Made by a program: the position numbers and the translations under genes
Source of the DNA: Candidatus Roizmanbacteria bacterium
GTDB taxonomy: Bacteria > Patescibacteriota > Microgenomatia > UBA1406 > GWC2-37-13
Reading direction: 5' to 3'
DNA length: 64,000 nucleotides
Assembly: GCA_012798265.1 (NCBI GenBank)
Contig: JAAZNM010000007.1
Coordinates: forward strand, 124,001 to 188,000
The notes under the pieces: generated by a model
What the model saw: the letters and a program-made list of their open reading frames with translations, nothing else
What the model was told of the DNA's origin: nothing
Databases searched by the model: none
Part shown: piece by piece, positions 8,376 to 62,843 of the stretch
How the letters are laid out: every line of letters starts with the position of its first letter
Position numbering within the stretch: position 1 is the stretch's first letter

Positions 8376-8381
8376 TATAAT
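8376..8381 (+). promoter_or_regulatory. -10 box of a leaderless-type promoter for the 8389 gene
   Basis: TATAAT ending seven bases before the ATG at 8389, so transcription should begin about one base before the start codon. No good -35 at standard spacing (TTGATT is 20 bases away). Confidence 0.6.
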
Positions 8382-8388
8382 TCTTAGT

Positions 8389-9273
8389 ATGAAAAAAGTC
8401 AAGACCTTTTTTCATGTTTTTGTCAATAGTTTGCTCCCGCAGGCTAACTATTATAAAAAAATATTGAAGACGCATTTTGATTTTTCCCTTCGTTATTTTA
8501 TTGGTCTGATAATAATATTAAATGTATTATTTGTAATTAATATATACTCCAGATACAGTTACCCAACAATCGGCCGTTTGACAGACAGCGCCATAAAAGG
8601 TTTGAAGAATATCCCCGAAGATCTTCAAATCTATCTGAACAAAGGTCTTTTTTTTACCTCCTATTCTCGCCCGTATTTTTTTTGGATAGACGATCAAAAA
8701 TCCATAAAGCTGCTTTTTGTTATAGATGAAACCGCTTATCCTCAAAAAATTAACACCTACGGAGCAAGCGCCATGATAACTTCCAAAGAAGTCGTCATAG
8801 GAATTAATAAGAAAGAGCCTATCACTCTGCCGCTTAACGATTATTGGCCGGTCAAGATGATTATCGACCATCAAGAGATCACCAAGATAACCGATTCGCT
8901 TGTCCAGTTTAGGCAGTGGTTGCCCGTAATCTATACGGCCCTGTTTTTGGTCTTATTGATTGCCATTCCGTTAATTTCGCTTCTGACCATTGGTTGTTAT
9001 CTGATTGCCGCCTGCCTCGTCATATATTTTGTTTTCAGTATGTTTATCCGCAAAAAAATCCATTTCAAAAAAGTCGTCCAGATATCTTTTCATTCGTTTA
9101 CTTTGCCTTTGATTCTGGACTACGCGACCATAATTTTCCAACCTTTTAACTGGTTGGGTAACTTTACGCAGTTTACCGTTAAACCTTCTTTCCTCTTGCC
9201 TTTTCTGTTTTTTTTGATGATCATTGTCTTCGTCTTTGCCGGAGCCTACGAAGCGTATCTTGACCAGGACTAA
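8389..9273 (+). CDS. DUF1189-like integral membrane protein
   Basis: 294 residues. The N-terminus MKKVKTFFHVFVNSLLP, followed by a TM helix (about 30-50), an extracytoplasmic region of about 130 residues, and four or so TM helices at the C-terminus, resembles DUF1189 membrane proteins (resemblance from memory, not a search). Function unknown. I use the ATG at 8389 because the -10 box sits seven bases upstream; a TTG 13 codons earlier would lie upstream of that box. Divergent from tuf, and ends 17 bases before the helicase gene. Confidence 0.75.
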   Translation: MKKVKTFFHVFVNSLLPQANYYKKILKTHFDFSLRYFIGLIIILNVLFVINIYSRYSYPTIGRLTDSAIKGLKNIPEDLQIYLNKGLFFTSYSRPYFFWIDDQKSIKLLFVIDETAYPQKINTYGASAMITSKEVVIGINKKEPITLPLNDYWPVKMIIDHQEITKITDSLVQFRQWLPVIYTALFLVLLIAIPLISLLTIGCYLIAACLVIYFVFSMFIRKKIHFKKVVQISFHSFTLPLILDYATIIFQPFNWLGNFTQFTVKPSFLLPFLFFLMIIVFVFAGAYEAYLDQD

Positions 9274-9278
9274 TCTGA

Positions 9279-9284
9279 TAGAAT
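9279..9284 (+). promoter_or_regulatory. -10 box for the UvrD-nuclease gene
   Basis: TAGAAT followed by exactly six bases and the ATG at 9291, so the predicted first transcribed base is the A of ATG. A TTGACC lies upstream but only 13 bases away, too close for a normal -35. Confidence 0.5.
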
Positions 9285-9290
9285 TACCTC

Positions 9291-12227
9291 ATGTATCAAG
9301 AAACGCCCCTGTCTTTGAACAAAAATCAGTTAAAAGCCATTAGATATAATAAGGGACCGTTGCTTATCATAGCCGGCGCCGGTACCGGAAAAACTTCTGT
9401 CCTGGTTGAAAAAATAAAATACATAATAAAAAAAAACCTGGCCAAACCTGAAAATATTCTAGCCCTGACCTTTACGGATAAGGCCTCATCGGAAATGGAA
9501 GAAAGGGTGGATAAAGCTATCCCCTACGGTTATTTCCAAATGTGGATCTCCACTTTCCATGCCTTTGCAGAAAAGATCTTGAAGGAAGAAGCCGGCCACA
9601 TAGGTCTTAACCACGGATTCCGATTGATGACGGAGGCCGAATCGATCATCTTCATAAAAAAAAATCTTTTTGTTTTTGATTTTAACTACTTCCGACCGTT
9701 AGGAAATCCCAACAAATTCATATATGACCTCATTAAACATTTTTCAAGGTTAAAAGACGAAGACATAAGTCCGGAAAATTACCTTGATTGGTTAAACAAA
9801 ATCAAAAAAAACCGTTCGATATTAAATGAGGAAAAAGACAAATACGGCGAACTTGCCCATGCTTATTTGAAATACCAATCCCTTAAGATCAAGGAGGGAC
9901 TGATGGATTTTTCCGATCTCGTTTATTACACCAACATGCTTTTTCGTAAAAGAAAAAGCGCATTGAACCATTATAGGCAACGTTTTTCCTATGTCCTGAT
10001 CGACGAGTTCCAGGATACCAATATCGCCCAATACCAATTGATAAAATTACTGTGCCCTGCAACAAAAAAACCGCGATTGACGGTCGTAGGAGACGATTCT
10101 CAGGCGATATATAAATTCAGAGGCGCTTCGATATCCAATATCCTTGGATTTATGAAGGATTATCCCCGGGCTAAGCAGATTACCTTGAACGATAATTACC
10201 GTTCAAACCAGACCATACTTGATACCGCCCATACTCTAATCAAAAAAAACAACCCTGACACCCTCGAATATCGTCTGGGGATATCCAAGAAGCTGATATC
10301 TCACAATAAAAACGACCCGGAGGCGGTTAGTTTTTTTCTAGCAGATAAGGTTGAAGAAGAAGCCGACTGGGTGGGAGAACAGATTAGATCATTAAACAGC
10401 CGTTATCGACTTTCCGAACTGGCGATACTCGTCAGAGCCAATAGTCATGCCCAAGCATTTATCCGTTCCCTGACGAGGAAAGGAATCCCTTACCAGTTTT
10501 TGGGACCAGGTATGCTTTTTAAACAACCTGAGGTTAAAGACTTAATCGCTTATTTGAAGGTGCTCGGCAATCTTGAAGACTCGCCTTCATTTTTCAGAGT
10601 GCTGTCTATGGATATTTTTCAGATAGATCATCAGGATCTCAGTTTGTTATTGTCTTTTTCCAAAAAAATCAATCTGCCCTTATTCCAAGCTCTTGAGATA
10701 TATCTTGGCTTTTTTTATCCGGAACTGTTTCGGAAGGAGTTCGAGATATACAAAAAATACCTGCCCCTCCTTAGGGAAGATAGCCGCAACCGATTCCTAT
10801 CAATCGTCAGATTGATAAAAAAACACCTTTCCCTGGTTAAACAGGAAAGTGCCGGACAGATCCTTTATTATTTTTTGGATAAAACCGGCTATCTGTCAAA
10901 ACTGGTAACTTTTAAAACCGTCAAAGAAGAAAAAGTCGCCACTAATGTGTCCAAATTCTTCGGTTGGCTGAGAACGTATGAGTCCGACCATGAAGACACC
11001 TCTGTGTTTGCGACCATAGATCATATAGAGATGAATCTTGAACTTGGGGAATCCCCTCTTATCGCCAAAACCGATCTACCAGAATATGAAGCCGTAAACA
11101 TCCTAACGGTCCATTCAGCTAAAGGCCTGGAATTTCCGGTCGTATTTTTGGTCAATCTGTCGCGAGGCAGATTTCCCCCTTATGACAAAAAGGAAGTTAT
11201 CCCCATACCTCAAAACCTTATCAAAGAAACTTTACCCGAGGGAGATTACCACCTTCAGGAGGAAAGACGACTTTTTTATGTCGGACTGACACGGGCTCAA
11301 GACAAGCTGTTCCTAAGCAGTTCAAGATTATACGGTGAGGGGAAAAAACAGTCGAAAATTTCACCTTTCATTTTGGATATCTTCGGCCAGGAGTTAATCA
11401 ACAGGCAATCAAAAACAAAGCTGGAACAAAAAAACCAGTTGTCAATATTTGAGTATAAACAGCCGAACGCACCGGTAAAGCCGGCGACTAACCTGCCCGA
11501 TAGTTTTTCATACTCCCAACTACAGACTTACAATACCTGCCCTCTGCAGTATAAGTATTATTATATTCTTAAGATCCCGACAACGCCAACCGCCCAGGAA
11601 TCGCTCGGTATCTCAATCCACAACACCCTCGAGCAGTTCTATAAGGAGTTTTTGATAAACAAAAAGATCGACAGAAAAAGGCTTATTAAGATCTATGAAG
11701 CCGAATGGCAGCCCATAGGTTATTCTTCTGCTTCTCATGAAAACAAGGTAAAAAAAGAAGGGGAAAAAATGTTAGACGGTTTTTTCAAAAACCACCATCG
11801 CCAAAACTTGAGGATTATCAATCTGGAAAAATTTTTCAAAATAAAGATTGCCCCGGACATTAAGGTTGTCGGGAAGATCGACAGAGTTGACAGACTGAAT
11901 AACTCGGAAATAGAGGTAATAGACTATAAAACCGGGCGCCAGCCTACAGAAAAAGAGATATTCAAAAATCTTCAGTTGGGCATCTACGCCCTGGCATGTA
12001 GTTCAAAAGGTCTTTATGACAAAAAAATTTCCCAGATAACCCTCAGTCTGTTTTTCCTCACTAACCTTAAAAAGATATCAATCAAAAAAACCGATAACGA
12101 TATTGAAGAGGTAAAAAAAGAAATAATCGATACCGTCGCCAGGATAAAAAAAGACGGTTTTTCTCCAAAACCGGGTTTATGGTGTTCTTTCTGCCCTTTC
12201 AAGATAATTTGCGAAGCTTGGCAGTAA
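9291..12227 (+). CDS. UvrD/PcrA-type helicase fused to a RecB-family nuclease
   Basis: 978 residues. The N-terminal two thirds is an SF1 helicase: Walker A AGAGTGKT (28-35), motif II LIDEFQD, motif III VGDDSQAIYKFRG, motif V TVHSAKGLEF and motif VI RRLFYVGLTRA. The C-terminal third has the PD-(D/E)XK nuclease signature EVIDYKTG. One cysteine (in NTCPLQY) before the nuclease and a cluster CSFC...C at the very end resemble the iron-sulfur staple of AddB/AdnA nucleases. Likely role is double-strand-break end processing or general repair. It combines in one chain what AdnA-type proteins do; no separate recB/addA partner is in the window. Confidence 0.92.
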   Translation: MYQETPLSLNKNQLKAIRYNKGPLLIIAGAGTGKTSVLVEKIKYIIKKNLAKPENILALTFTDKASSEMEERVDKAIPYGYFQMWISTFHAFAEKILKEEAGHIGLNHGFRLMTEAESIIFIKKNLFVFDFNYFRPLGNPNKFIYDLIKHFSRLKDEDISPENYLDWLNKIKKNRSILNEEKDKYGELAHAYLKYQSLKIKEGLMDFSDLVYYTNMLFRKRKSALNHYRQRFSYVLIDEFQDTNIAQYQLIKLLCPATKKPRLTVVGDDSQAIYKFRGASISNILGFMKDYPRAKQITLNDNYRSNQTILDTAHTLIKKNNPDTLEYRLGISKKLISHNKNDPEAVSFFLADKVEEEADWVGEQIRSLNSRYRLSELAILVRANSHAQAFIRSLTRKGIPYQFLGPGMLFKQPEVKDLIAYLKVLGNLEDSPSFFRVLSMDIFQIDHQDLSLLLSFSKKINLPLFQALEIYLGFFYPELFRKEFEIYKKYLPLLREDSRNRFLSIVRLIKKHLSLVKQESAGQILYYFLDKTGYLSKLVTFKTVKEEKVATNVSKFFGWLRTYESDHEDTSVFATIDHIEMNLELGESPLIAKTDLPEYEAVNILTVHSAKGLEFPVVFLVNLSRGRFPPYDKKEVIPIPQNLIKETLPEGDYHLQEERRLFYVGLTRAQDKLFLSSSRLYGEGKKQSKISPFILDIFGQELINRQSKTKLEQKNQLSIFEYKQPNAPVKPATNLPDSFSYSQLQTYNTCPLQYKYYYILKIPTTPTAQESLGISIHNTLEQFYKEFLINKKIDRKRLIKIYEAEWQPIGYSSASHENKVKKEGEKMLDGFFKNHHRQNLRIINLEKFFKIKIAPDIKVVGKIDRVDRLNNSEIEVIDYKTGRQPTEKEIFKNLQLGIYALACSSKGLYDKKISQITLSLFFLTNLKKISIKKTDNDIEEVKKEIIDTVARIKKDGFSPKPGLWCSFCPFKIICEAWQ

Positions 12228-12236: not shown

Positions 12237-12242
12237 TATAAT
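12237..12242 (+). promoter_or_regulatory. -10 box for the envelope-glycan operon
   Basis: TATAAT ends ten bases before the ATG at 12253; predicted 5' UTR about four bases. Directly after the helicase stop codon. No convincing -35 at 17 bases. Confidence 0.55.
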
Positions 12243-16727: not shown

Positions 16728-17810
16728 ATGGTTTATTTTTTAAGTTTCACCGCTGCTGCCCTCTTTTCTTTTATCTTGACTGTCCCGACAATAATCTTGG
16801 CCAAAAAGTACAAGTTGGTCACCGATAAAACCAAAAGATATCATCCGGCCCATACGCATCAAGGCATTATTCCTCGCGGCGGTGGTTTACCGATCTATCT
16901 TGCCCTGCTGGCCAGTTGTTTCATATTTATCGATATCAATAAAATTATGATTGGAATCCTTTTAGCAGGATTTTTATTGGTGGTATTAGGCTTGCTTGAT
17001 GATTATTTTGATATTTCGCCTTATGCCAGATTTGTGGCTAATATTCTCATATCGGCCACAGCCATCGGTTTTGGTTTGGGTATACCATATATTTCCAATC
17101 CTTTTGGGGGAATAATCAGGTTGGACACCTGGAAGATCGCCGTTAATTTCTTAGGCAGCCATCATGTTTGGGTTCTGGCCGACTTGCTGGCCATTATCTG
17201 GCTTTCATGGACTATGAACATGGTCAACTGGAGTAAGGGGGTAGACGGCCAGCTACCCGGATTTGTCGGGATAACGGCCTTTTTCCTCGGGCTTCTTTCC
17301 CAAAGATTTACCGCCCACGACATCAGCGTTGAATCGGTGGTTATTTTCGCATTTATTGTATCCGGCAGCTATATCGGATTTCTCCCCTTTAATTTTTACC
17401 CGCAGAAAATTATGCCCGGTTATGGAGGCGGCGCATTGGCCGGTTTCCTGCTCGGAGTACTGTCTATATTGTCTTTTGGCAAAGTCGGAACCGCTATATT
17501 GATAATGGCCGTCCCGACCATAGATGCTTTCTATACCATAGTCCGTCGATTGAAAAACCGTCGCTCCCCTTTCCGGGCCGACTGGGGACACCTCCACCAC
17601 CGTCTTCTGGAAATAGGCTGGGGGAAAAGAAGAATCGCCGTTTTTTATTGGACTGTTTCCTTAATCCTCGGCTTGGTCAGTCTATGGGTTAAGGGAATCT
17701 ATAAATTGATAATTTTTCTCACCATCGCCGTGGTTATCCTGATTTTTATCATGATGGTTAACAAAATTAAAAGACAAAGAAAAACCGCTTTTAGTAAAAT
17801 AGGGCAATGA
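16728..17810 (+). CDS. WecA/TagO/MraY-family polyprenyl-phosphate sugar-1-phosphate transferase
   Basis: 360 residues, about ten TM helices. It would start lipid-linked glycan synthesis by moving a HexNAc-1-phosphate from a UDP-sugar to undecaprenyl phosphate. Visible motifs are PRGGGLPIYL, the Mg-binding GLLDDYFD, NMVNWSKGVDG (usually N-x-x-N-x-x-D-G-x-D-G; here Ser-Lys replaces the first Asp region), and the terminal DWGHLHHRL. The altered third motif makes the exact substrate uncertain. Its last four bases overlap the miaB start. Confidence 0.88.
   Translation: MVYFLSFTAAALFSFILTVPTIILAKKYKLVTDKTKRYHPAHTHQGIIPRGGGLPIYLALLASCFIFIDINKIMIGILLAGFLLVVLGLLDDYFDISPYARFVANILISATAIGFGLGIPYISNPFGGIIRLDTWKIAVNFLGSHHVWVLADLLAIIWLSWTMNMVNWSKGVDGQLPGFVGITAFFLGLLSQRFTAHDISVESVVIFAFIVSGSYIGFLPFNFYPQKIMPGYGGGALAGFLLGVLSILSFGKVGTAILIMAVPTIDAFYTIVRRLKNRRSPFRADWGHLHHRLLEIGWGKRRIAVFYWTVSLILGLVSLWVKGIYKLIIFLTIAVVILIFIMMVNKIKRQRKTAFSKIGQ
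17795..17800 (+). promoter_or_regulatory. Possible -10 box for miaB
   Basis: TAAAAT with exactly six bases to the ATG at 17807. It lies inside the end of the preceding gene, so it may be chance; the spacing matches the leaderless pattern seen elsewhere. Confidence 0.35.
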
Positions 17811-18933: not shown

Positions 18934-18939
18934 TAAAAT
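18934..18939 (+). promoter_or_regulatory. -10 box for rmlB
   Basis: TAAAAT ending nine bases before the ATG at 18949; predicted UTR about three bases. Confidence 0.5.
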
Positions 18940-19970: not shown

Positions 19971-20810
19971 ATGCTAAAGATCGCCCTAACCGGAGCTTCA
20001 GGTCTTGTTGGCTCAAGAATAATCGAGATCCTAAAAGACCGTTTTGATTTTATTCCCGTTTCCCAGGACAGGATGGATATAACAAACAAAGACCAGGTTG
20101 AAAAAAACCTAAGTAACCTTGAGTTTGATATCTTCCTGCATCTGGCAGCCTACACCGATGTCGACGGGGCGGAAAAAGAAAAAACAGCCGCGTACGTTAT
20201 CAACGTTAAAGGAACGGAAAACGTTTTTAAGACGGTAAAAAAACTTGGCAAGAAGTTTATATACGTATCGACTGATTTTGTGTTTGACGGCCAAAAACCG
20301 CCTTATTTCGAGGATAGTCAACCCAACCCCATTTCTTATTACGGCCTGACCAAATACGAAGGAGAGAGGATCGTCCGCGATCAGGCGATGATCGTCAGAT
20401 TTTCTTATCCATATCGAGCTCGCTTTGACCAAAAAAAGGATTTTGTCCGTACCATCAAAACCTTTCTCGAACAACAAAAATCTCTAACCATGGTAAATGA
20501 CAGTCTTATGACCCCGACATTTATCGATGATATTGCCGAAAGTTTCGGTCATCTTTTTCTAAACTTCTCTCCGAAGATCTATCATATTGTCGGGCAGGAT
20601 AGCATGTCACCATTTCAAGCCGCCCGAAAAATCGCCGAAACTTTCAATCTGGATTCTCGACTAATCTCTTCCATAAGTTATGACAAATACTTCAAAAACA
20701 AGGCAAAAAGGCCTAAACTGGCAGATATGAAAAGCAAAAAAAATGACTTTTTTTCCATGAAAACCTTTAGCCAAGGATTGAAAATCCTAAGTCAGTCTAG
20801 TATGATTTAA
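19971..20810 (+). CDS. rmlD: RmlD-like sugar-nucleotide reductase
   Basis: 279 residues, SDR fold: T-G-A-S-G-L-V-G-S at the N-terminus, HLAAYTDVDGAE, the S-T-D-F-V-F-D-G block and catalytic YYGLTKYEGE. This matches dTDP-4-dehydrorhamnose reductases, which finish dTDP-rhamnose. The block AAYTDVDGAE is characteristic of RmlD. Without rmlC nearby, the product could be another 6-deoxysugar. Confidence 0.82.
   Translation: MLKIALTGASGLVGSRIIEILKDRFDFIPVSQDRMDITNKDQVEKNLSNLEFDIFLHLAAYTDVDGAEKEKTAAYVINVKGTENVFKTVKKLGKKFIYVSTDFVFDGQKPPYFEDSQPNPISYYGLTKYEGERIVRDQAMIVRFSYPYRARFDQKKDFVRTIKTFLEQQKSLTMVNDSLMTPTFIDDIAESFGHLFLNFSPKIYHIVGQDSMSPFQAARKIAETFNLDSRLISSISYDKYFKNKAKRPKLADMKSKKNDFFSMKTFSQGLKILSQSSMI
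20778..20806 (+). promoter_or_regulatory. Promoter for the ugd-uxs-DPM genes
   Basis: TTGAAA (20778-20783), 17-base spacer, TATGAT (20801-20806), ATG eight bases later at 20815. Predicted UTR about two bases. The promoter lies inside the 3' end of the rmlD-like gene. Confidence 0.65.
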
Positions 20811-25106: not shown

Positions 25107-25112
25107 TAAGAT
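25107..25112 (+). promoter_or_regulatory. -10 box for argS
   Basis: TAAGAT ending eight bases before the ATG at 25121, predicting a two-base UTR. This spacing also supports 25121 over the in-frame ATG at 25115. Confidence 0.45.
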
Positions 25113-34444: not shown

Positions 34445-34480
34445 ATTATTTAATTTTAATCAAAATTGTCTTCGATGCAA

Positions 34481-34533: not shown

Positions 34534-34539
34534 TAGAAT
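34534..34539 (+). promoter_or_regulatory. -10 box for nfo
   Basis: TAGAAT ending five bases before the ATG at 34545, predicting a leaderless transcript. Lies about 20 bases from the divergent hrcA -35. Confidence 0.5.
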
Positions 34540-35392: not shown

Positions 35393-35398
35393 TATAAT
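35393..35398 (+). promoter_or_regulatory. -10 box for the tRNA nucleotidyltransferase gene
   Basis: Perfect TATAAT followed by exactly six bases and the ATG at 35405; predicted start is the A of ATG. Confidence 0.6.
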
Positions 35399-35404: not shown

Positions 35405-36745
35405 ATGATTGACTTACCCCAACATGTAAAAACATTCATGCGGCGTTTTGAAAAAAAAGGCTATCGGATTTATTTGGTGGGTGGAGCGGTAAGGAACGCC
35501 CTGCTTGGCAAAAAAGTTGACAACTGGGACTTCGCTACCGACGCCACCCCCGAGAAGATTCTTGAACTTTTTCCCGACGGTTATTGTAATAACCAGTTCG
35601 GAACAGTGGGCGTTTCCCAAAACATCGGAAAAGAAAAATACATTTTTGAAGTCACTCCCTTCAGAAAGGAGTCAGACTATCAAGACTTTCGCCACCCTAA
35701 AAAGATAGTTTGGGCAAAAACGGTGGAAGAAGACTTGGCTAGACGCGACCTTACCATCAATGCCATTGCCTATGACGGGAAAAAAATTATTGATCTTTTT
35801 GATGGACAGAATGACCTTAAAAACAAAGTCATCGCCTGCGTCGGTGATCCTGATAAAAGATTTTCCGAAGACGCCTTAAGGCTCATTAGGACGATACGTT
35901 TTGCTTCCCAACTCGGATTCATCATAGAAGAAAAAACCAGGTTATCCATTCAAAAAAACTGCCGACTGATAAAAAATATTTCCTGGGAAAGGATCAGAGA
36001 CGAGTTTTTGAAAATTCTCGCTTCTGATTATCCTTCGGAGGGAGTACTTTTTTTACACAATACCGGATTACTCTCTCAAATTTTACCGGAACTCGACGTC
36101 TGCTTTGTCATTCCGCAAAAAAGCCCTAAAAGGCATCATATATTCGACGTCGGCACCCATGCGATCATGTCATTAAAACACTGTCCGTCTAAAGATCCTA
36201 TTACCCGTTTTGCCACCTTAATCCACGACATCGGCAAGGTCAAAGCCTTCAACAAAGACCAAAAAACAGGATTGATCACTTTTTATAACCACGAAGTTAT
36301 CGGAACAAAACTCGCCGAAAAAATCGCCGATCGTTTCAGGTTATCCAATACTCATAAAGAAAAACTAGTTCGTCTCGTCAAATATCATCAATTTACGGTA
36401 TCTGAGATAATTACCGATAAGGCCGTTCGCCGGTTCATACGGGAGGTCGGCAAGGAATATATCCAAGATATGCTTGATTTGCGGGTCGGCGACCGCATCG
36501 GTTCAGGCGCCAAGCCTACTTCGTGGCGACTGGAGCTTTTCAAAAAACGGATCATCGAAGTCCAAAAAGAACCGTTCAAAATTACCGATCTGAAAATCAA
36601 CGGTCATGACGTTATGAAAAAACTAAATCTGCAACCAGGCCCGCAAATCGGAAAAATTCTTAAAGAAATTTTTGATCAGGTAATCGATGGAAAAATAAAA
36701 AATGAAAGACAAACTCTCTTAGAGAAAATTAATACGAATCTTTAA
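35405..36745 (+). CDS. cca: tRNA nucleotidyltransferase (CCA-adding/poly(A) polymerase family) with HD domain
   Basis: 446 residues. Class II nucleotidyltransferase head: VGGAVRNALLG, then D-N-W-D-F-A-T with the catalytic carboxylates, RRDLTINAIAYD, and the nucleotide-selecting E-D-x-L-R-L-I-R-T-I-R-F-A. An HD phosphohydrolase domain follows (THAIMSLKH ... ATLIHDIGK), as in bacterial CCA enzymes. Probably adds or repairs the tRNA 3' CCA end; poly(A) polymerase activity cannot be excluded. Its last four bases overlap the end of the convergent MBL gene. Confidence 0.9.
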   Translation: MIDLPQHVKTFMRRFEKKGYRIYLVGGAVRNALLGKKVDNWDFATDATPEKILELFPDGYCNNQFGTVGVSQNIGKEKYIFEVTPFRKESDYQDFRHPKKIVWAKTVEEDLARRDLTINAIAYDGKKIIDLFDGQNDLKNKVIACVGDPDKRFSEDALRLIRTIRFASQLGFIIEEKTRLSIQKNCRLIKNISWERIRDEFLKILASDYPSEGVLFLHNTGLLSQILPELDVCFVIPQKSPKRHHIFDVGTHAIMSLKHCPSKDPITRFATLIHDIGKVKAFNKDQKTGLITFYNHEVIGTKLAEKIADRFRLSNTHKEKLVRLVKYHQFTVSEIITDKAVRRFIREVGKEYIQDMLDLRVGDRIGSGAKPTSWRLELFKKRIIEVQKEPFKITDLKINGHDVMKKLNLQPGPQIGKILKEIFDQVIDGKIKNERQTLLEKINTNL

Positions 36746-37933: not shown

Positions 37934-37939
37934 ATTATA
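37934..37939 (-). promoter_or_regulatory. -10 box for the HAD-MBL pair
   Basis: TATAAT on the minus strand, eight bases before the ATG at 37925; predicted UTR two bases. Overlaps the very end of secF. Confidence 0.55.
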
Positions 37940-42411: not shown

Positions 42412-42440
42412 ATTTTAACGACTTTACAAATGACTGTCAA
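42412..42440 (-). promoter_or_regulatory. Promoter for the DUF4446-secDF operon
   Basis: Minus strand perfect TTGACA (42435-42440), 17-base spacer, TAAAAT (42412-42417), nine bases to the ATG at 42402. UTR about three bases. Abuts the divergent -10 box at 42441-42446. Confidence 0.75.
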
Positions 42441-42446
42441 TATGAT
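42441..42446 (+). promoter_or_regulatory. -10 box for the 42458 gene
   Basis: TATGAT directly beside the divergent -35 box at 42435-42440; predicted UTR about five bases to the ATG at 42458. Confidence 0.45.
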
Positions 42447-43968: not shown

Positions 43969-43974
43969 ATTATA
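43969..43974 (-). promoter_or_regulatory. -10 box for the nucleotidylyltransferase gene
   Basis: TATAAT on the minus strand, nine bases before the GTG at 43959; predicted UTR about three bases. Overlaps the plus-strand -10 box at 43973-43978. Confidence 0.55.
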
Positions 43975-43978
43975 CAAT
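43973..43978 (+). promoter_or_regulatory. -10 box for the DUF4012 gene
   Basis: TACAAT, six bases, then ATG at 43985; predicted leaderless. Shares two bases with the divergent -10 box. Confidence 0.5.
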
Positions 43979-43984: not shown

Positions 43985-46261
43985 ATGAAATTAAAAGTCG
44001 AAACTCTCGAAGATAAGCAAAAGTCACTGATAGTCTATCGTAAACTCGGGCATCTGATTGAACTTCTTAAGTCCAAACTGGCAAAAAAAAATGTCGAGGT
44101 CTATCTGTCGCCTTTGTTGCCTAAAAAAATCGACGTTTTCGACTATTGTTTTTTGATAGACGAAAAAAGGGCCGCCGAAAAAGCGATTGAGTATCCTAAA
44201 AAAAACATCGTCGCCATCTTTATCAATCAGGAAAAAGCGGCAAAAAAACTGGTCCATCGGCGTTTAAAGAATTTGAAAATAATTAATATCGCCGGTAATT
44301 TTTTTTCCGAGATGGATGTGGATCGCATACTCTGGTTTTCTTTTTCCCAAACCAAGGAACAGTATCTGTCCATCTACGCCCTAACCAAAAGCAAACCGTT
44401 TAAAAACAAATTCAGACCGTCTCTTGACCTTAAAAAAATGGTTTCAAAAAAAGTGATTGTACCGCTAATTCTCGTGTTGCTTTTTCTTTATCATTTTGCG
44501 TTTCTTGTTCCCCTATCGTTTTCAGGTTACCTTTCTTACCAAGTTTATTCGGCTTTAAAAAAGGAAGACTGGGAAAAAAGCGGTAACTATCTTAGATGGC
44601 TTAACAATTCCAACAAAATAACCAAAGAAATATACTCCTTGTCCCGACCGACGTTTTCGCTTTTCTCGGCTGCCATTCTCCCTGACAATCTGATCGAAAT
44701 AAACGAAAAAGCTTACTTGGTATTCAACGAACTGACCGTAACTAACCAGAATGTCAAAGAGATTGCCAAACTCATTGCCAACAAGTCAAAAAACCAACAG
44801 GAAAAACAAGAAATAGCATTCAGAGTTAAGGTCCTCCAGGATAATCTCAAACAAATGGAAGAAAATCTCAGCACAATCGTCAGCAAAATACCCAATCAAC
44901 TGCCGGTTGCCAAACAGGCGGGTCAAAAAATCTCCGAGATTACCCAAAATCTCTCCCTCGCCAACAAACTCATCCCTTACTTGGACAATATTTTGGCCAA
45001 AGACACGGAAAAAAAATATCTTTTGATCTTCGCCAACAATATGGAACTTCGACCCGGAGGAGGTTTTATCGGTTCTTTCGGAGTACTGACTGTCAAAGAC
45101 TATACCTTTCAGGAGATAAAAATTTATGACGTCTACGATGCCGACGGCCAACTAGTCGCCCATATAGAACCTCCAGCCCCGATCAAAAAGTATTTGAACA
45201 TGCCCCATTGGTTTCTTCGTGATTCAAATTTTTCCCCTGATTTTTATGAAAATTATGAACAGGCAAAATTTTTTTTGGATAAAGAGATGAATATGAGAGG
45301 TTTTGCCGGATCTTTTCTTATGACAACAACAGCTGTCCAGAATATTCTTGAGTCATTCGGAAACATATATCTTCCCGACTACAATGAAACCATAAACCAA
45401 AAAAATTTTTATTTAAAAACCCAGTATTATGCCGAAAACAACTTTTTGCCGGGATCTATTCAAAAAAAAAGCTTTCTCGGATCGCTGTCGCGCCAAGTCA
45501 TCTTAAACTGGGAAAATGCTTCGCCAAAAAAGATGGCTCTTGGTTTGAAAAAGTCTCTGGACGAAAAACAGATGGTTTTTTATGCCGAAGATCCCGATCT
45601 TCAGGAAGCGATTGACTCTTTGTTCTGGTCCGGAAAAATATCCCAACCGAAGTGCATCCAGGAAATGGACAACTGCGTTGTTGATTACCTTTATCCTGTG
45701 GACGCAAATTTAGGGGCTAACAAGGCAAATTTTTTTATAAACCGCCTCATAGATATTAAAATCAAGATTGATGAAAATGGGGAAATAATCCATAGCCTCA
45801 CCGTCAACTTCAAAAACGACTCGCCAAACGACGTTTTTCCAGGAGGAACTTATCATAATTATTTTCAAACATATCTGCCAAAGGATGCCCTGCTTGGCGA
45901 TATAACCCAAGACGGAACCGCCGTAGACCAAAGCGAAATAACCGTAGAAGAAAAAAACAGTCTCTTCAAGACCGTCGGTTTCATGGTTCGAATCAGACCA
46001 AAAACCAGTTCTATCGTCAAAATTGACTATAAATTAGGCAACGCTTTCAAAAAAGGCAAAGGGCTTTATCAGCTGATAATCCAAAAACAGATCGGATCGG
46101 CCAACAATGATTTGGTGCTAAGGCTGGATGTCGCCAAAAACGTTTATATCCTCAACCAAAATTTTTCTCCTCTTGTCAAAGATAATCAAATCGTCTATAA
46201 TACCAATTTATCGGCTGACAAAATATTTTTTGTCGAAATAATTAAAGACGCTGATAAATAA
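43985..46261 (+). CDS. DUF4012 domain membrane protein
   Basis: 758 residues. The first 150 residues are a cytoplasmic globular part, then one TM helix (about 157-178), and a large extracytoplasmic region. The DUF4012 core has LLIFANNMELRPGGGFIGSFG followed by D-V-Y-D-A-D-G-Q-L. Families with this domain are often linked to exopolysaccharide or surface layers, without known activity. It is followed eight bases later by rplY. Confidence 0.9.
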   Translation: MKLKVETLEDKQKSLIVYRKLGHLIELLKSKLAKKNVEVYLSPLLPKKIDVFDYCFLIDEKRAAEKAIEYPKKNIVAIFINQEKAAKKLVHRRLKNLKIINIAGNFFSEMDVDRILWFSFSQTKEQYLSIYALTKSKPFKNKFRPSLDLKKMVSKKVIVPLILVLLFLYHFAFLVPLSFSGYLSYQVYSALKKEDWEKSGNYLRWLNNSNKITKEIYSLSRPTFSLFSAAILPDNLIEINEKAYLVFNELTVTNQNVKEIAKLIANKSKNQQEKQEIAFRVKVLQDNLKQMEENLSTIVSKIPNQLPVAKQAGQKISEITQNLSLANKLIPYLDNILAKDTEKKYLLIFANNMELRPGGGFIGSFGVLTVKDYTFQEIKIYDVYDADGQLVAHIEPPAPIKKYLNMPHWFLRDSNFSPDFYENYEQAKFFLDKEMNMRGFAGSFLMTTTAVQNILESFGNIYLPDYNETINQKNFYLKTQYYAENNFLPGSIQKKSFLGSLSRQVILNWENASPKKMALGLKKSLDEKQMVFYAEDPDLQEAIDSLFWSGKISQPKCIQEMDNCVVDYLYPVDANLGANKANFFINRLIDIKIKIDENGEIIHSLTVNFKNDSPNDVFPGGTYHNYFQTYLPKDALLGDITQDGTAVDQSEITVEEKNSLFKTVGFMVRIRPKTSSIVKIDYKLGNAFKKGKGLYQLIIQKQIGSANNDLVLRLDVAKNVYILNQNFSPLVKDNQIVYNTNLSADKIFFVEIIKDADK

Positions 46262-46268
46262 AATTAAT

Positions 46269-48447: not shown

Positions 48448-48475
48448 TTGATTTTTACCCGTCTTGTGTTACAAT
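48448..48475 (+). promoter_or_regulatory. nusA promoter
   Basis: TTGATT (48448-48453), 16-base spacer, TACAAT (48470-48475), six bases, ATG at 48482. Predicted leaderless. Confidence 0.65.
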
Positions 48476-49533: not shown

Positions 49534-50982
49534 ATGTCTGTCAGGCCTCCGGTTGTCACCATCCTGGGTCATGTCGATCACGGAAAAACCACGCTTCTTG
49601 ACTTTGTCAGAAAAAGCCGTATCGCCGCCAAGGAGTTCGGCGGAATTACCCAACGAATTGGCGCTTATGAGATAAAGACAGGCATAAAAGGTTATAAAAA
49701 CGACCGGATCACCTTCGTTGATACGCCCGGACATGAGACGTTTGCCCAATTACGGGCTCGAGGAGCCAATGTCGCCGACATAGCCTTGCTCCTCATTGAT
49801 GCCAAAGATTCCCTTATGCCGCAAACCGTTGAGTCTATCTCCCATATCAAAGCCGCCAAAATCCCTTTCGTAGTGGTTTTGAACAAAACCGACCTGCCGG
49901 AAGCCAATCCGGAAAAAGTCAAGACCGACCTCCTTAAACACCAGGTTATGGTTGAGGGTAAGGGTGGTACCGTACCGGTTGTTAATATATCGGCCAAGAC
50001 AGGCCAAGGAGTAAATGACCTGCTTGAAACCATCCTACTGCTGTCTTCGGATCTCAATCTCACCTTTGACGAAAACAAAGCGCCGCTGGCATACGTCATC
50101 GAAACGAAAAAAGACAAAAGGGGTATTGTAGCCAGCTTGATTATTAAGGAAGGCCAAATCAAAGTGGGCGATTCCGTTTACGCCCTGAACGTCAAAGGCA
50201 AAGTAAAGTCACTCATAAACGATATGGGAAAACCTATGCGAGCGGTTATACCCTCTTCTCCTTTTGAGCTTTTGGGATTTGAGTCTTTGCCAATGGTTGG
50301 AGCCAAAGTCACCGATCAAGCTACAGATTCTCCAGACAACACAAAGTCGGTAAAAACAAAGAAGGTTTTCGATCTGGATTCGATTATTAAACCGGTTGAG
50401 GAAGAAAAAAAACTTTCTCTCATAATCAAAACCGACTCTTTCGGATCACTTGAAGCCACTACCCATAGCTTAGCCAACAACAAAAACCTCAATATTATCT
50501 TGAGCGCTGTCGGCGACATAAACAAATCCGATGTTTTTCTTGCCAAAACAACCAAGTCGGTTATTGTCGGTTTCAACGCCAAAGCGGACCTGACCGTCAA
50601 AGACCTGGCAAAACAGGAAAAAGTGATCATCAAATCCTATAATATTATTTATGAACTACTCGAAGAACTAAATGAGGTAGCCGATCTTATCAAAGAAAAG
50701 GAGGAAAAAGAAAAAAGCCTCAAAGGAGAAGCCAAGATCCAAGCCGGATTCATAATCGAAGGCGAAAAGGTTCTGGGAATAAAGGTTACCAAAGGAAAGA
50801 TCAATCTAGGCGACATGCTGGAAATATATCGCCAAAACAATCCTATAGGCAAAAGCAAACTTGTCTCTCTAAAAATAAGGGCCAAACGAGTAACCGAGGT
50901 AAAAAAAGATCAAGAAGCGGGTATGATCGTCTCCCCTCAACTTGACATCCGCACCGGTGATGTGGTAAAATCTATCCTATAG
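49534..50982 (+). CDS. infB: Translation initiation factor IF-2 (core-only form)
   Basis: 482 residues; most bacterial IF-2 are 700-900. The reading begins almost at once with the G1 block [18 protein letters not shown]3 is DTPGHETF and G4 NKTD. Domains II-IV follow to the C-terminal fMet-tRNA-binding domain (SLKIRAKRVTEVKK). The N-terminal IF2N domains are absent. GTPase that places fMet-tRNA on the 30S. 23 bases after nusA. Confidence 0.95.
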   Translation: MSVRPPVVTILGHVDHGKTTLLDFVRKSRIAAKEFGGITQRIGAYEIKTGIKGYKNDRITFVDTPGHETFAQLRARGANVADIALLLIDAKDSLMPQTVESISHIKAAKIPFVVVLNKTDLPEANPEKVKTDLLKHQVMVEGKGGTVPVVNISAKTGQGVNDLLETILLLSSDLNLTFDENKAPLAYVIETKKDKRGIVASLIIKEGQIKVGDSVYALNVKGKVKSLINDMGKPMRAVIPSSPFELLGFESLPMVGAKVTDQATDSPDNTKSVKTKKVFDLDSIIKPVEEEKKLSLIIKTDSFGSLEATTHSLANNKNLNIILSAVGDINKSDVFLAKTTKSVIVGFNAKADLTVKDLAKQEKVIIKSYNIIYELLEELNEVADLIKEKEEKEKSLKGEAKIQAGFIIEGEKVLGIKVTKGKINLGDMLEIYRQNNPIGKSKLVSLKIRAKRVTEVKKDQEAGMIVSPQLDIRTGDVVKSIL

Positions 50983-51937: not shown

Positions 51938-51943
51938 TATAAT
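51938..51943 (+). promoter_or_regulatory. -10 box for rmuC
   Basis: TATAAT followed by exactly six bases and a GTG start at 51950; predicted leaderless GTG transcript. Confidence 0.6.
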
Positions 51944-51949: not shown

Positions 51950-52903
51950 GTGAATCTTACTATAATCTTAACGGCTATCTTCTTTTTAATAACTCTGGTG
52001 ATAATCCGCCTGTGGCTTACGCAGATAGAGCAAAAAACCAACCCGTCAGATGAATTGGTGGCTTGGCTGAAAGATCTAGGTTCCAGAGTCGAGAGTTCCA
52101 CCAACATGTTTAACAGCCGTCTGGACAAAGCCGCTTATGTCATTGCCGATGTTCAAAAAAGCATCGGCGAATTTTCCGAGATCGGCCGGTCGATGAAAGA
52201 TATCCAACAAATACTCCAATCACCCAAACTCAGAGGCAACATCGGTGAACAGGTATTGAAAGAGCTTTTATCGCAGTATTTTCCCAAAAGCTCATTTATG
52301 CTCCAATATCAGTTCAAAAACGGCGAAAAAGTCGATGTCATCATAAAAACCAGCCAAGGAATCATCCCCATAGACTCTAAATTTCCCATGGAAAACTTCA
52401 GAAAACTAATAGCCTCAGAAAAAGATGAGGATAAAAATAAAGCTAAAAAAGAGTTTGAAAAAGATGTCAAAAAACATATCCTGGATATCAGCCGCAAATA
52501 CATCTTGCCTGATGAAGGGACGATTGATTACGCACTGATGTATATTCCCTCAGAGACCGTTTATTACGAAATCGTAAACAACAACGAACTGTTTGACTTT
52601 GCCGGCAACAAAAAAGTTCTGCCCGTATCGCCAATGAGTTTTTACGCTTATATAAAAGCCATTCTCATGTCTTTTGAAGGATTGCAGATACAGTCGAAGG
52701 CAAAAGAAATCCTCATCCTTCTCCAAGCCATAAAAAAAGATTATCAAAAAAGCGACGAATCTTTTTCAATTCTCTCCAGGCATATTGGTAACGCCTATAA
52801 CCAGTTAAACCAGGTCGGTAAAAATTTTTCCTCACTTGGCCAAAAAATAAACTCCAGCCATCTTATTGCCGACAAAGAAACATCAAAAAAAATACTTGAA
52901 TAG
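51950..52903 (+). CDS. rmuC: RmuC-family DNA recombination protein
   Basis: 317 residues, GTG start. N-terminal TM (about 3-22) and coiled coil, then the RmuC nuclease-like core: R-G-N-I-G-E-Q-V-L-K-E-L-L, the D-V-I-I-K block, I-P-I-D-S-K-F-P, and MYIPSETVYYE. The order E...D...D-S-K is the PD-(D/E)XK-like site. Limits DNA inversions at repeats in E. coli. The next gene is recJ, 17 bases later. Confidence 0.9.
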   Translation: MNLTIILTAIFFLITLVIIRLWLTQIEQKTNPSDELVAWLKDLGSRVESSTNMFNSRLDKAAYVIADVQKSIGEFSEIGRSMKDIQQILQSPKLRGNIGEQVLKELLSQYFPKSSFMLQYQFKNGEKVDVIIKTSQGIIPIDSKFPMENFRKLIASEKDEDKNKAKKEFEKDVKKHILDISRKYILPDEGTIDYALMYIPSETVYYEIVNNNELFDFAGNKKVLPVSPMSFYAYIKAILMSFEGLQIQSKAKEILILLQAIKKDYQKSDESFSILSRHIGNAYNQLNQVGKNFSSLGQKINSSHLIADKETSKKILE

Positions 52904-55789: not shown

Positions 55790-55817
55790 ATTATATTGAA
55801 AATATATCAAAAATCAA
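55790..55817 (-). promoter_or_regulatory. prs promoter
   Basis: Minus strand TTGATT (55812-55817), 16-base spacer, perfect TATAAT (55790-55795). Start near 55783, giving a leader of about 25 bases to the ATG at 55758. Confidence 0.65.
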
Positions 55818-55843: not shown

Positions 55844-55852
55844 TATTATATT
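55844..55852 (+). promoter_or_regulatory. -10 region for aspS
   Basis: Overlapping TATTAT (55844-55849) and TATATT (55847-55852) just before the ATG at 55857, consistent with a near-leaderless transcript. Confidence 0.45.
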
Positions 55853-59146: not shown

Positions 59147-59152
59147 ATATTC

Positions 59153-59158
59153 ATGATA
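59153..59158 (-). promoter_or_regulatory. -10 box for the 59146 gene
   Basis: TATCAT on the minus strand, exactly six bases before the ATG at 59146; predicted leaderless. Confidence 0.45.
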
Positions 59159-59736: not shown

Positions 59737-60192
59737 TTATAATACCGATCTGAAAATATAAGTAACCGCCGTAAGCACCACTAACGGAATAATCACTTTC
59801 TGGTATGGGAAAAGAACCTTACCCCCGTTTTTAAAACGGATGAATTTGTCTATAAAAAAGGCGACGAAAAAAGTGAGCAAACCGACTGTCATCCCGACTA
59901 TTATTTTGTCCAGACCATAAAGTTTGTTCACCGGATGGCCTATCTGTTTTGAATAAAAAAAATAGGCCATGGAAAAAAAATAAAACATAAGCGACCAAAG
60001 AAAGGGGTTATTAATGATTCTGTTTTTGATTGTCGAAGCTATCCAAAAAGCTATCGCGCTATTTAATCCGGAGATCCAGATCGAAACCAACAGATCGTCT
60101 ATCCCCAACTTTTTGGCGATGAAGAGACCTCCTCCGACTGTAAGGATACAAACAGGACAGTTGGCATAAACCGGTTTAGCCAATAAAAACAT
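59737..60192 (-). CDS. Small multi-pass membrane protein with CPVC motif
   Basis: 151 residues, four to five TM helices. A C-P-V-C motif (Cys 12 and 15) follows a short hydrophobic N-terminus, then T-V-G-G-G-L-F-I-A-K-K-L-G-I-D-D. The CxxC could be redox-active or bind a metal near the membrane surface. No named family is assigned. First gene of the block. Confidence 0.68.
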   Translation of the reverse strand: MFLLAKPVYANCPVCILTVGGGLFIAKKLGIDDLLVSIWISGLNSAIAFWIASTIKNRIINNPFLWSLMFYFFSMAYFFYSKQIGHPVNKLYGLDKIIVGMTVGLLTFFVAFFIDKFIRFKNGGKVLFPYQKVIIPLVVLTAVTYIFRSVL

Positions 60193-60199
60193 AGAAAAG

Positions 60200-60205
60200 A
60201 TTATA
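60200..60205 (-). promoter_or_regulatory. -10 box for the CPVC membrane gene
   Basis: TATAAT on the minus strand, seven bases before the ATG at 60192; predicted UTR one base. Confidence 0.55.
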
Positions 60206-60252
60206 CTATATTTTCCTATCGGTTTTTCCGACTGTTTGTTTCGGCTTGGTGT

Positions 60253-60258
60253 TATAAT
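60253..60258 (+). promoter_or_regulatory. -10 box for the 60268 gene
   Basis: TATAAT, nine bases before the ATG at 60268; UTR about three bases. Confidence 0.55.
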
Positions 60259-60267
60259 AATAAAAAC

Positions 60268-60861
60268 ATGAGGTTTAATGGCTTGAGATTGACCAAAAAA
60301 GAGCTGTATTTTTTGCCAGTCATTTTATTCTTTTTCTTTGCCGCTTACCGTAACTTCAGATTTTACATAAACGAACAAAAAAGAATCGGCGACTACGTAA
60401 AACTGGACTTCCGCAAGGATATTTATGACGAAATACAGACCCAACACACCTATTATCTCATTTATAAAACCGCCAGAGACTACAAAGATAAATCCGGAGT
60501 AAAGATTTATTATTTCAGCAACAAGACCTCTCCCGAGAATCTCGACTACAACTCGACGCTGTATGCCAACCAAAAATCAAACGGTTCCTCTGAAAAACAG
60601 AACGTATATCTCAGCGAGGTCGGACTCTATATAAATTATTATTTTTATCCAAAGATCGTCGATACCTGTTATTCCGACTCCGATCTCAGCCAAAAAATAA
60701 AATACGGCGGCGGTAAAGCCGTTATCATATCGGATATCGATCTTATCGATCAACCCATAAAAACCCTTCCCAAACTAAAAAGAATACCCGACCCGTACGG
60801 CGAAAAAAGGCTTGTTTACAGAAACCCCGAACCTTTTCACGTTTTTGAAACATATGAGTAA
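60268..60861 (+). CDS. Membrane-anchored protein of unknown function
   Basis: 197 residues. One N-terminal TM helix (about 14-28) and an outer domain rich in Tyr and Lys. No family recognised. Its end overlaps the next start by eight bases, a GT-C type gene, so it may be an accessory of that enzyme. Confidence 0.65.
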   Translation: MRFNGLRLTKKELYFLPVILFFFFAAYRNFRFYINEQKRIGDYVKLDFRKDIYDEIQTQHTYYLIYKTARDYKDKSGVKIYYFSNKTSPENLDYNSTLYANQKSNGSSEKQNVYLSEVGLYINYYFYPKIVDTCYSDSDLSQKIKYGGGKAVIISDIDLIDQPIKTLPKLKRIPDPYGEKRLVYRNPEPFHVFETYE

Positions 60862-62269
60862 TCCTATTTACGCTGTTTTAGTTTACATAGCATCCGTCTA
60901 TCTTGTCGGTTTTTTGATCCTCCAGGTTTTTTTTAAGAAAATCAGCCGTTCCACCAATCTTTTTCTCGGTTTCGGCTTATCCTGGCTATGGGGAACTGTG
61001 TTTTTCTTCCTGATCGGTTATTTTTTGGCTTTAACCAACAATCTGGAATTGATCTCTATGGGAAAATTATATTGGTTTGCCGCACCTGCGGTTCTGATAA
61101 ACCTAACAATCGTCATAAAAAGACAGGTAAAGGAAAAGACCGGTGTAAATTGGCTTAATTTTGTTGTTTTTATCTTTACTCTGGTCTTTTTTTACCCTTT
61201 GGCCAAAGAGGCACTATTCACGCCGATGAAAAGCTGGGATAGCGTAGCTATGTGGCTGATGAAAGCCAACAGCTTTTACTTAAGTTCCGGCATATGGACT
61301 AACGATCTATACACTAAGCCGGGTTTTGATTATTTAATCAAGGCCTATCCTATTGGCTTCCCTCTTTTGACATCAATCTATTACAGGCTGATCAACAACA
61401 TAAACGACCAAACGGTGCAGTTATATTACCTGTTTTTTTATCTTAATTTGATCTGGACTTTTTTCGGTTTTTTGTTGGAAGTTTTCGCCGACCGGAAAAA
61501 GATATTATTGCTGGTTTTGACTTTGATAATATTTTTGGGGCCGGACTTTATAATTTATTCGCACAACGGCTACGCCGATATCGCCATTGCCTTTCTTTTC
61601 TTGATATCATTTACGTCTCTGGTCATTTTCCACGACAAAAAAAACGCCTCCTTAGGTTATCTAATCACCGCCATAGCCGGATCGACCTTGAGTGCTTGTT
61701 TCAAAAATGACGGTCTGCCTTTTTTTATATTGATAACGGTTTTTAGCTTTATGATTATCGCAAAAGATTTGTTGAAAAAAAAAGCCGGTATAAAAACGCT
61801 TCTTATTACCGGAACGACAATCTTTGTTGGGACCGCCATCCTGATAAGCTGGGAAACGGTTAAAAACAAACTTCATCTCATCCATTACCTGGATTATGGA
61901 TCGTTTAACCTCAACTCTCTTAAAAGGGTTGGTCTGATTTATTTTTATTTCTGGGATAACTTTACCAATGTCAATAAGTTCGGAATGATCGCCATACCTT
62001 CTCTAGTCGTCATTATGACCGAGATAACCTATCTGTTGCTCAACGGAAAAACAAATCGGTTGATTTTTTTTGTTGTACTGCTCGGACAAATATCGGCCTA
62101 TGCTTATGCCTATATGAAAACCCCTCTTCCGCTCGAGCTTCATCTTCAAACATCTATGGAGAGATTGATCATCCAAAGTCTACCGGTCTACCTTGCTTTG
62201 GTATTTTTATATACGAAAGAAGTTGTTGCAAGAGTTACCTCACCAACCCCAAGGGCATATACCAAGTAA
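60854..62269 (+). CDS. GT-C type multi-pass membrane protein, probably a glycosyltransferase
   Basis: 471 residues, about 12 TM helices. The start is the ATG giving MSNPIYAVL, overlapping the upstream stop. A loop with S-W-D-S-V-A-M-W-L-M-K-A-N-S-F-Y resembles the acidic site of GT39/GT83 enzymes. Donor and acceptor unknown. The last 35 bases overlap the convergent rubrerythrin gene. Confidence 0.7.
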   Translation: MSNPIYAVLVYIASVYLVGFLILQVFFKKISRSTNLFLGFGLSWLWGTVFFFLIGYFLALTNNLELISMGKLYWFAAPAVLINLTIVIKRQVKEKTGVNWLNFVVFIFTLVFFYPLAKEALFTPMKSWDSVAMWLMKANSFYLSSGIWTNDLYTKPGFDYLIKAYPIGFPLLTSIYYRLINNINDQTVQLYYLFFYLNLIWTFFGFLLEVFADRKKILLLVLTLIIFLGPDFIIYSHNGYADIAIAFLFLISFTSLVIFHDKKNASLGYLITAIAGSTLSACFKNDGLPFFILITVFSFMIIAKDLLKKKAGIKTLLITGTTIFVGTAILISWETVKNKLHLIHYLDYGSFNLNSLKRVGLIYFYFWDNFTNVNKFGMIAIPSLVVIMTEITYLLLNGKTNRLIFFVVLLGQISAYAYAYMKTPLPLELHLQTSMERLIIQSLPVYLALVFLYTKEVVARVTSPTPRAYTK

Positions 62270-62792
62270 ACGGTTTTTTGCATACCGGACAGTTCACCGG
62301 CGGCTGCTTACCTTTGTGAATATTCCCACAGTTAACACACTTCCATTCAAGTTCGGCTTCAGAGTCATATAGAGTTTTGTTATCAAGTTTTTTTGCGATT
62401 ATTATGTAACGTTCTTCGTGTTTGGCTTCGACCAGTTTGACCGAACCGAAAAGTTTGGCAGCTTTTTCTTGTTTCTCTTCAATGGCGATTTTTTCAAAAT
62501 CAGGATACATAGTCGTCCATTCATACTTTTCTCCGGCGGCCGCCATTTTCAAGTTGTCACTGGTTTTTTTATATGGCTCTATTTCAAGATTACCGGTCGT
62601 CTGGACGTGACCGGAAATAAGCTCAAAGAGTTCTTCCGCGTGAGCCTTTTCATTATCGGCAGTTTCCTCAAAAACACGGGCAATCCATTCAAGATTTTCT
62701 TTCCGGGCCATTTTGGCAAACTGCGTATATTTGTTTCTTGCCTGACTTTCCCCGGCAAAAGCCCTAAGCAAGTTCTGTTGTGTTTGATTCAT
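62235..62792 (-). CDS. rbr: Rubrerythrin
   Basis: 185 residues. A ferritin-like diiron domain (GESQARNKYTQFA ... DNEKAHAEE ... EAKHEERY carries the E-x-x-H ligands), then a rubredoxin-like domain with CVNC and CPVC. Reduces peroxide in anaerobes. It has a good near-leaderless promoter, divergent from thrC. Confidence 0.95.
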   Translation of the reverse strand: MNQTQQNLLRAFAGESQARNKYTQFAKMARKENLEWIARVFEETADNEKAHAEELFELISGHVQTTGNLEIEPYKKTSDNLKMAAAGEKYEWTTMYPDFEKIAIEEKQEKAAKLFGSVKLVEAKHEERYIIIAKKLDNKTLYDSEAELEWKCVNCGNIHKGKQPPVNCPVCKKPFTWYMPLGLVR

Positions 62793-62801
62793 ATGGATAA
62801 A

Positions 62802-62830
62802 ATCGTATCAGATAATTGTCTTTGGGTCAA
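62802..62830 (-). promoter_or_regulatory. Rubrerythrin promoter
   Basis: Minus strand TTGACC (62825-62830), 17-base spacer, TACGAT (62802-62807), nine bases to the ATG at 62792; UTR about three bases. Confidence 0.65.
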
Positions 62831-62843
62831 TATGTAATATAAT
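62816..62843 (+). promoter_or_regulatory. thrC promoter
   Basis: TTGTCT (62816-62821), 16-base spacer, TATAAT (62838-62843), with a leader of about ten bases to the ATG at 62860. Overlaps the divergent rubrerythrin promoter. Confidence 0.6.

Follow-up and report, generated by a model that had tools for sequence, protein, structure and literature searches.

The 64,000-nt stretch of a Candidatus Roizmanbacteria genome analysed here (the window) raises the question of where its transcripts begin. Hexamers resembling the TATAAT of a -10 element recur a few bases before start codons on both strands, and an earlier note on this DNA took leaderless transcription to be the default. The window is C8:124001-188000 of a genome of 954,489 bp (8 contigs, 99.4% complete). 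The nearest matches of the NusA protein encoded in it come from Candidatus Roizmanbacteria (64-78% identity), followed by Gottesmanbacteria, Levybacteria, Beckwithbacteria and Woesebacteria, and by this ranking the source genome is therefore to be placed in or adjoining Roizmanbacteria (Patescibacteria, Microgenomates group). Judging from the sequence, the boxes are very probably sigma-70 -10 elements, and most operon heads with a recognisable promoter would accordingly yield leaderless or near-leaderless mRNA.

Distance of the boxes from start codons

Our sample of this genome comprised 410 kb (the window and 18 further stretches) with 372 genes for which 100 nt of upstream sequence was available. 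As a box we counted a hexamer with at least five of the six letters of TATAAT, A-11 and T-7 being kept, at a gap of 4-12 nt to the start codon; windows lying 20 and 40 nt farther upstream served as controls for box counts. Likely operon heads were divergent genes or those beginning at least 15 nt after the preceding gene. Starts were called blindly by a codon-based caller, which uses coding content alone and sees no upstream signals; tested on 42 annotated starts of E. coli, it recovered 34.

In the window, 18 of the 20 starts listed in the earlier note have a box as defined above. At the two others (25121, TAAGAT, and 62792, TACGAT) a box stands in its place but matches only four letters of six. 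The six cases for which a gap of exactly six bases had been claimed all proved exact on reading. Altogether, 21 of the 63 called genes in the window were boxed, whereas control windows gave 6, 7 and 3, and 500 dinucleotide shuffles a mean of 4.7 and a maximum of 14. The blind caller picked the listed start at 17 of the 20 positions. The original observation is thus confirmed, and its leaderless interpretation is supported, as far as sequence can tell.

The same pattern was observed genome-wide. Boxes precede 130 of the 372 genes (33 and 28 in control windows), and outside the window they precede 109 of 309 (controls 27 and 21; mean 24.1, maximum 38 in 100 shuffles). The picture had been the same with a hexamer-chain gene caller (107/347), which missed genes in small samples and was replaced by the codon-based one. 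The sharp peak predicted for a plot of TATAAT score against distance was indeed present: gap 6 accounts for 40 of the 372 genes, gaps 7, 8 and 9 for 25, 23 and 20, and each of the gaps 10-29 for 1-11. Since a -10 hexamer ends at -7, a gap of six places the +1 position on the start codon. Among likely operon heads, 94/223 were boxed (controls 24 and 20).

An expectation-maximisation (EM) mixture model with a 9-letter motif, run on these 223 heads, converged on T G n T A T A A T (TG 0.68, 0.42). It assigned 102.6 heads (46%) to gap 4-11, 46.9 (21%) to gap 12-49 and 12.9 (6%) to gap 0-3. On two shuffled sets of heads its figures were 1.0 and 1.6 (0-1%) for gap 4-11, compared with 7.5 and 15.3 for gap 12-49, so that the leadered class is less certain. 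In E. coli the model gave 0% of heads, and by simple count 2 of 65 heads were boxed (controls 5 and 4). As for the proposed default, leaderless heads, at 46%, appear to outnumber any other single class of likely operon head, but they do not form the majority of all genes.

Promoter character and conservation of the boxes

A sequence resembling TATAAT before a start codon might also be nothing more than an AT-rich, unstructured context for translation initiation, with no promoter role. This explanation can draw on the A/T-rich composition of the region before starts, where unboxed genes favour T at -1 and are rich in A from -3 to -7, and on some other A/T hexamers that are likewise raised there (ATAATT in 25 genes vs 5 and 4 in control windows, ATTATA in 20 vs 5 and 10). 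At gap 4-11, however, TATAAT itself outnumbers each of the other arrangements of its letters (20 permutations in all), occurring in 44 genes compared with 10 and 5 in control windows. A TG at the extended -10 position accompanies 36 of 114 boxed genes, compared with 0-18 at eight other offsets. At spacer 16-18, at least four of six letters of TTGACA are found in 37 of the 114, compared with 11-19 at control spacers, which bears out the remark that -35 boxes are often weak. The peak at 6 nt is sharp, dinucleotide-shuffled heads and E. coli heads are almost free of such boxes, and the box is common to orthologues whose flanks agree poorly (see below). An AT-rich context without promoter role is therefore highly improbable as the source of the boxes.

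Internal in-frame ATGs are rarely boxed (47/1808). Among sigma factors, one RpoD-type protein scored above the cut-off (355.9 vs 354 bits), alongside a second frame that is sigma-like but shorter (187 aa).

For 110 genes of this genome, an orthologue start could be identified in 615 kb of DNA from the same family (limits 40% identity and 8 residues). Orthologues were boxed for 19 of 39 boxed genes and for 7 of 71 unboxed ones (p=1e-5); the figures were 14/28 and 6/34 for heads only (p=0.013), 11/20 and 3/41 for genome G306, and 3/39 and 2/71 in a control window 24-31 nt upstream. In the 19 boxed pairs the flanking bases agree at 0.1-0.6, while the high agreement of the box letters themselves arises by construction, because only pairs boxed on both sides were taken. 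A smaller first test (45% identity, 6 residues), which took a single pair for each gene and gave 7/17 vs 4/28 (p=0.07), was superseded by this one.

The nusA gene illustrates both conservation and its limits. Of the 14 nearest loci, 13 (all but L054) have a TAnAAT-type box at a distance of 6-9 nt from the ATG, and the spacers are unlike. Of eight further named loci, four were boxed and one gave no start. The nusA starts align across the class, boxless loci included.

Taken together, these results suggest the following mechanism. TGnTATAAT-like -10 elements with weak or absent -35 boxes would set the RNA polymerase start on the start codon or no more than about 3 nt from it, so that transcript 5' ends would lie at or near start codons. 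Ribosomes already bearing fMet-tRNA would then load, with initiation factor IF2, at the 5'-terminal AUG.

Shine-Dalgarno sequences, relatives and known systems

Shine-Dalgarno (SD) usage was measured as SD 4-mers at gap 4-13 and compared with local shuffles. In this genome it is at chance level for all genes (36/372; shuffles 36.6±5.0), for heads (19/223; 19.1±3.6) and for tightly packed genes (15/143; 15.8±3.4). Counts in windows farther upstream had suggested SD depletion, an idea that was dropped when local shuffles gave chance level. The same measure yielded 44/80 (18.8±3.9) in E. coli and 44/84 (23.3±3.2) in the relative G109; SD motifs also exceeded shuffles in G312 (29/91; 19.4±2.7), G199 (22/90; 14.4±2.6) and G167 (39/114; 28.8±4.4). 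Within the family, G306 was at chance (9/72; 8.5±2.2) and G316 somewhat higher (9/63; 4.8±1.5). The SD-free state thus holds for this genome, and not surely for the family as a whole. The 3' end of its 16S rRNA, ...ggatcacctcctttc (L001, about 2990-3013), carries an intact anti-SD CCUCC. An intact anti-SD hence coexists with no SD excess in genes; a bS21 gene is also present, as are S1 repeats, three of them in one 391-aa frame.

An SD 4-mer occurs in 4 of 114 boxed and 31 of 242 unboxed genes of this genome, a difference that is partly mechanical, as the box fills the place of the SD. G109, which lies outside the class (L151-L154, L171 and L172), has an SD in 44 of 56 unboxed and in none of 25 boxed genes, and in 10 of 11 genes whose sole box lies at 20-44 nt. 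When the four SD-using relatives, picked after the SD results had been seen, were pooled, an SD was found in 1/75 boxed vs 130/286 unboxed genes. From its sequence, G109 would appear to be a good model of a mixed initiation system.

The context of start codons points to a further signal. In the 242 unboxed genes T stands at -1 in 156, at -2 in 92 and at -3 in 67, and packed genes frequently have A at -3 to -7. Ten relatives from Patescibacteria likewise have more T at -1 (44-57%) than E. coli (22/78). U at -1 pairs with A37 of the initiator tRNA. In the 40 genes with gap 6, in which the -1 base should stay untranscribed, it is T in 20 and C in 9, C being found in 17/242 unboxed genes; the T vs C comparison gives p=0.004. 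At gap 8-9, T stands at -1 in 33/43. This fits T(-1) being a translation signal whose constraint is lifted only where the base would lie outside the mRNA. T at -1 may also be behind part of a small second rise of TATAAT-like hexamers that abut the start codon at gap 0-1 (15 and 13 genes).

Several results weigh against leaderless initiation as the prevailing mode at heads, or against single arguments for it. Boxes precede 32 of 143 tightly packed internal genes (controls 8 and 7), and some boxes are therefore internal promoters or AT-rich chance occurrences. With G316 alone the orthologue test was weak (7/19 vs 4/33, p=0.074), and elsewhere in the class only 3 of 26 other nusA loci have a box at gap 4-12. 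The mutual exclusion of box and SD in G109 is partly mechanical, because both claim the same bases. As for T(-1), genes with gap 7 behave like unboxed ones (17/25), few genes are involved, and promoters themselves may favour certain bases at -1. Finally, in about 27% of heads the 50 nt before the start hold no detectable box, and the caller missed 8 of 42 E. coli starts, from which it follows that some called starts are wrong.

The boxless heads, together with the 21% whose box lies at 12-49 nt, would agree with leaderless transcription being a real minority mode, most units having longer leaders and degenerate promoters that were missed. We consider this unlikely, although it deserves to be kept in mind: heads show none of the SD excess that leadered SD genes would show, and boxes at gap 4-11 outnumber those at 12-49 about two to one. 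The wrong calls, in turn, might mean that the promoters are real while many starts were placed too far upstream, a later start codon giving ordinary leaders; the starts at 51950 and 35405 were in fact assigned elsewhere by one or other caller. Yet the called starts show no SD enrichment, the gap peak follows them to within 1 nt, nusA starts align even where there is no box, and protein profiles fit from near residue 1 in several boxed genes (e.g. 18949, 20815 and 34545). There is very little chance that misplaced starts explain the pattern. Leaderless or near-leaderless transcription of most heads with a recognisable promoter thus continues to be the reading that we prefer.

For the remaining genes, SD-less initiation could proceed by coupling with the preceding gene, aided by an A-rich stretch and U at -1. 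Packed genes, 38 of which overlap their neighbour by 4 nt, are probably served by such coupling. We lean, with some reserve, towards a broader view, in which SD-guided initiation has been given up genome-wide, even in operons, while the anti-SD was kept; heads would be leaderless, other genes would use coupling and the A-rich/U(-1) context, and relatives would form a series from mixed (G109) to SD-free. If so, the group offers a natural series for studying how a bacterium drops SD-guided initiation yet keeps its anti-SD, and would show one initiation mode being replaced by another. If leaderless transcription is the main mode, gene finders that expect an SD may misplace starts, and expression constructs should fuse the promoter directly to the ATG.

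The reach of the pattern was assessed by comparing counts of TATAATN{5,9}ATG (near) and TATAATN{25,29}ATG (far), a spacing control preferred as fairer than a backwards-pattern control, although genes whose leaders are about 20 nt long enter its counts too. This genome gave 154 near and 71 far sites, and the ratio was at least 1.4 in all 24 class genomes sampled, this one included. Outside the class, 247 of 262 genomes were usable; their median ratio was 1.35, with 196 above 1 and 89 significant at 0.01, and of 107 families with enough sites 50 exceeded 1.3 and 24 did not exceed 1. As these ratios are patchy, no claim is made for the whole phylum. Boxed heads numbered 17/46 and 19/48 in two genomes of the family and 14/67, 12/59, 27/66, 23/71 and 22/59 in the class, with 2-9 in control windows. 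In other families they reached 25/64 in G109 (controls 6 and 7), 29/60 in G071 (13 and 7) and 24/61 in G182 (21 and 15); the last, with 27% GC, is weak despite an EM share of 39% and is not counted as firm. Some relatives with the same boxes also use SD.

Leaderless transcription as such is known in Deinococcus, Actinobacteria and archaea. In Actinobacteria and archaea, start mapping has reportedly found transcription starts at the start codon to be a common mode, and archaeal promoters are said to differ. In D. radiodurans a -10 motif lies 6-7 bp before the open reading frame (ORF) in nearly one third of genes (PMC12340547, in the parts considered). This Deinococcus-Thermus expression from a -10 region adjacent to the ORF is the nearest known counterpart of the present genome, which has 35% of genes boxed and a peak at 6 nt. 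The present genome differs in that SD is at chance level, whereas a GGAG ribosome-binding motif also occurs in Deinococcus, and in that the box is TATAAT-like with TG rather than TANNNT; the Deinococcus study moreover draws on transcriptome and, reportedly, promoter experiments, the present one on sequence.

Zheng 2011 described 'TA-led' leaderless signals in 207 of 953 bacterial genomes, with a signal about 10 bp before the start, as here, and a TG peak for several low-GC genomes; in the section of that paper covered, Patescibacteria are not named among the TA-led groups and one unclassified genome is mentioned (PMC3160421). At the level of sequence, the marks of the TA-led class are found here as well: a -10 signal in a large share of genes, boxed genes without SD, and a signal kept in orthologues.

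As for translation, the covered parts of another study list SD-scarce organisms without CCUCC, including Absconditabacteria, Campbellbacteria, Peregrinibacteria and Wolfebacteria, and describe for leaderless mRNA elsewhere that ribosomes load at a 5'-terminal AUG with fMet-tRNA and IF2 (PMC10783764). Our genome keeps CCUCC, as does its class ii of SD-scarce organisms, and SD appears to be unused; the limit of that class, less than 5.5% of genes with SD, refers to hybridisation energy, while ours is a 4-mer measure, in which 36/372 equals the shuffles. The same parts do not treat promoters and name no Microgenomates. A published base-composition study found, as here, a bias before starts that resembles a Pribnow box, and attributed it to leaderless mRNA; it deals with bias only, its authors also allow for S1 binding sites, and candidate phyla go unmentioned. 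In the literature on Patescibacteria, Candidate Phyla Radiation, Saccharibacteria and Microgenomates we found no leaderless report, though one may exist, as subscription journals were mostly uncovered. The kind of system is thus known, and what seems new is its weight in this lineage beside a seemingly disused SD.

Individual boxes of the window

On the forward strand, the first box is TATAAT at 8376..8381 (gap 7, ATG 8389). It is followed by TAGAAT at 9279..9284 (gap 6, ATG 9291), before a UvrD/PcrA-like helicase with a Cas4/AddB-like C-terminus, and TATAAT at 12237..12242 (gap 10, ATG 12253). TAAAAT at 17795..17800 (gap 6, ATG 17807), absent from the earlier list, serves a start that overlaps the preceding gene by 4 nt. 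Next come a dTDP-glucose 4,6-dehydratase (TAAAAT, 18934..18939, gap 9, ATG 18949) and a nucleotide sugar dehydrogenase (TATGAT, 20801..20806, gap 8, ATG 20815), and the weak TAAGAT at 25107..25112 precedes arginyl-tRNA synthetase (gap 8, ATG 25121). Endonuclease IV has TAGAAT at 34534..34539 (gap 5, ATG 34545), and CCA tRNA nucleotidyltransferase TATAAT at 35393..35398 (gap 6, ATG 35405). The blind caller put the latter start at 35438, and the CCA-transferase family profile fits the reading from 35405, residue 9 corresponding to profile position 10.

Farther along this strand, TATGAT at 42441..42446 (gap 11, ATG 42458) precedes a short ORF with no family match, which the blind caller missed. 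TACAAT at 43973..43978 (gap 6, ATG 43985) belongs to a DUF4012 gene, and TAAAAT at 46259..46264 (gap 4, ATG 46269), also absent from the earlier list, to ribosomal protein bL25. The box of nusA is TACAAT at 48470..48475 (gap 6, ATG 48482), preceded at a distance of a few bases by TG. Directly after nusA lies the IF2 gene (49534-50982), whose product of 482 aa opens almost at the GTPase domain and is short for an IF2; a short IF2 thus occurs in a lineage that seemingly relies on leaderless mRNA. An RmuC-like gene follows with TATAAT at 51938..51943 (gap 6, GTG 51950), then a class II tRNA synthetase of D/K/N type with TATTAT at 55844..55849 (gap 7, ATG 55857), and finally TATAAT at 60253..60258 (gap 9, ATG 60268).

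On the reverse strand, TAAAAT at 34453..34458 (gap 8, ATG 34444), the third box absent from the earlier list, is divergent from 34545. Further boxes are TATAAT at 37934..37939 (gap 8, ATG 37925), TAAAAT at 42412..42417 before a DUF4446 gene (gap 9, ATG 42402), TATCAT at 59153..59158 (gap 6, ATG 59146), TATAAT at 60200..60205 (gap 7, ATG 60192) and the weak TACGAT at 62802..62807 before rubrerythrin (gap 9, ATG 62792).

Four genes had been named as contrasts with leaders of 25-100 bases. This holds for tuf (TATAAT at 8302..8307, reverse strand, gap 35, ATG 8266) and a prs-like gene (TATAAT at 55790..55795, reverse strand, gap 31, ATG 55758). It is not confirmed for rplC, since the called gene with the L3 domain has its best box at gap 0, and hrcA was not found in the protein scan.

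One reverse-strand box, TATAAT at 43969..43974, lies at gap 9 from GTG 43959, a start that is uncertain, the blind caller having chosen TTG 43977. It overlaps the forward TACAAT of the DUF4012 gene, so that within 43969-43978 the -10 boxes of both strands would serve two divergent leaderless genes.

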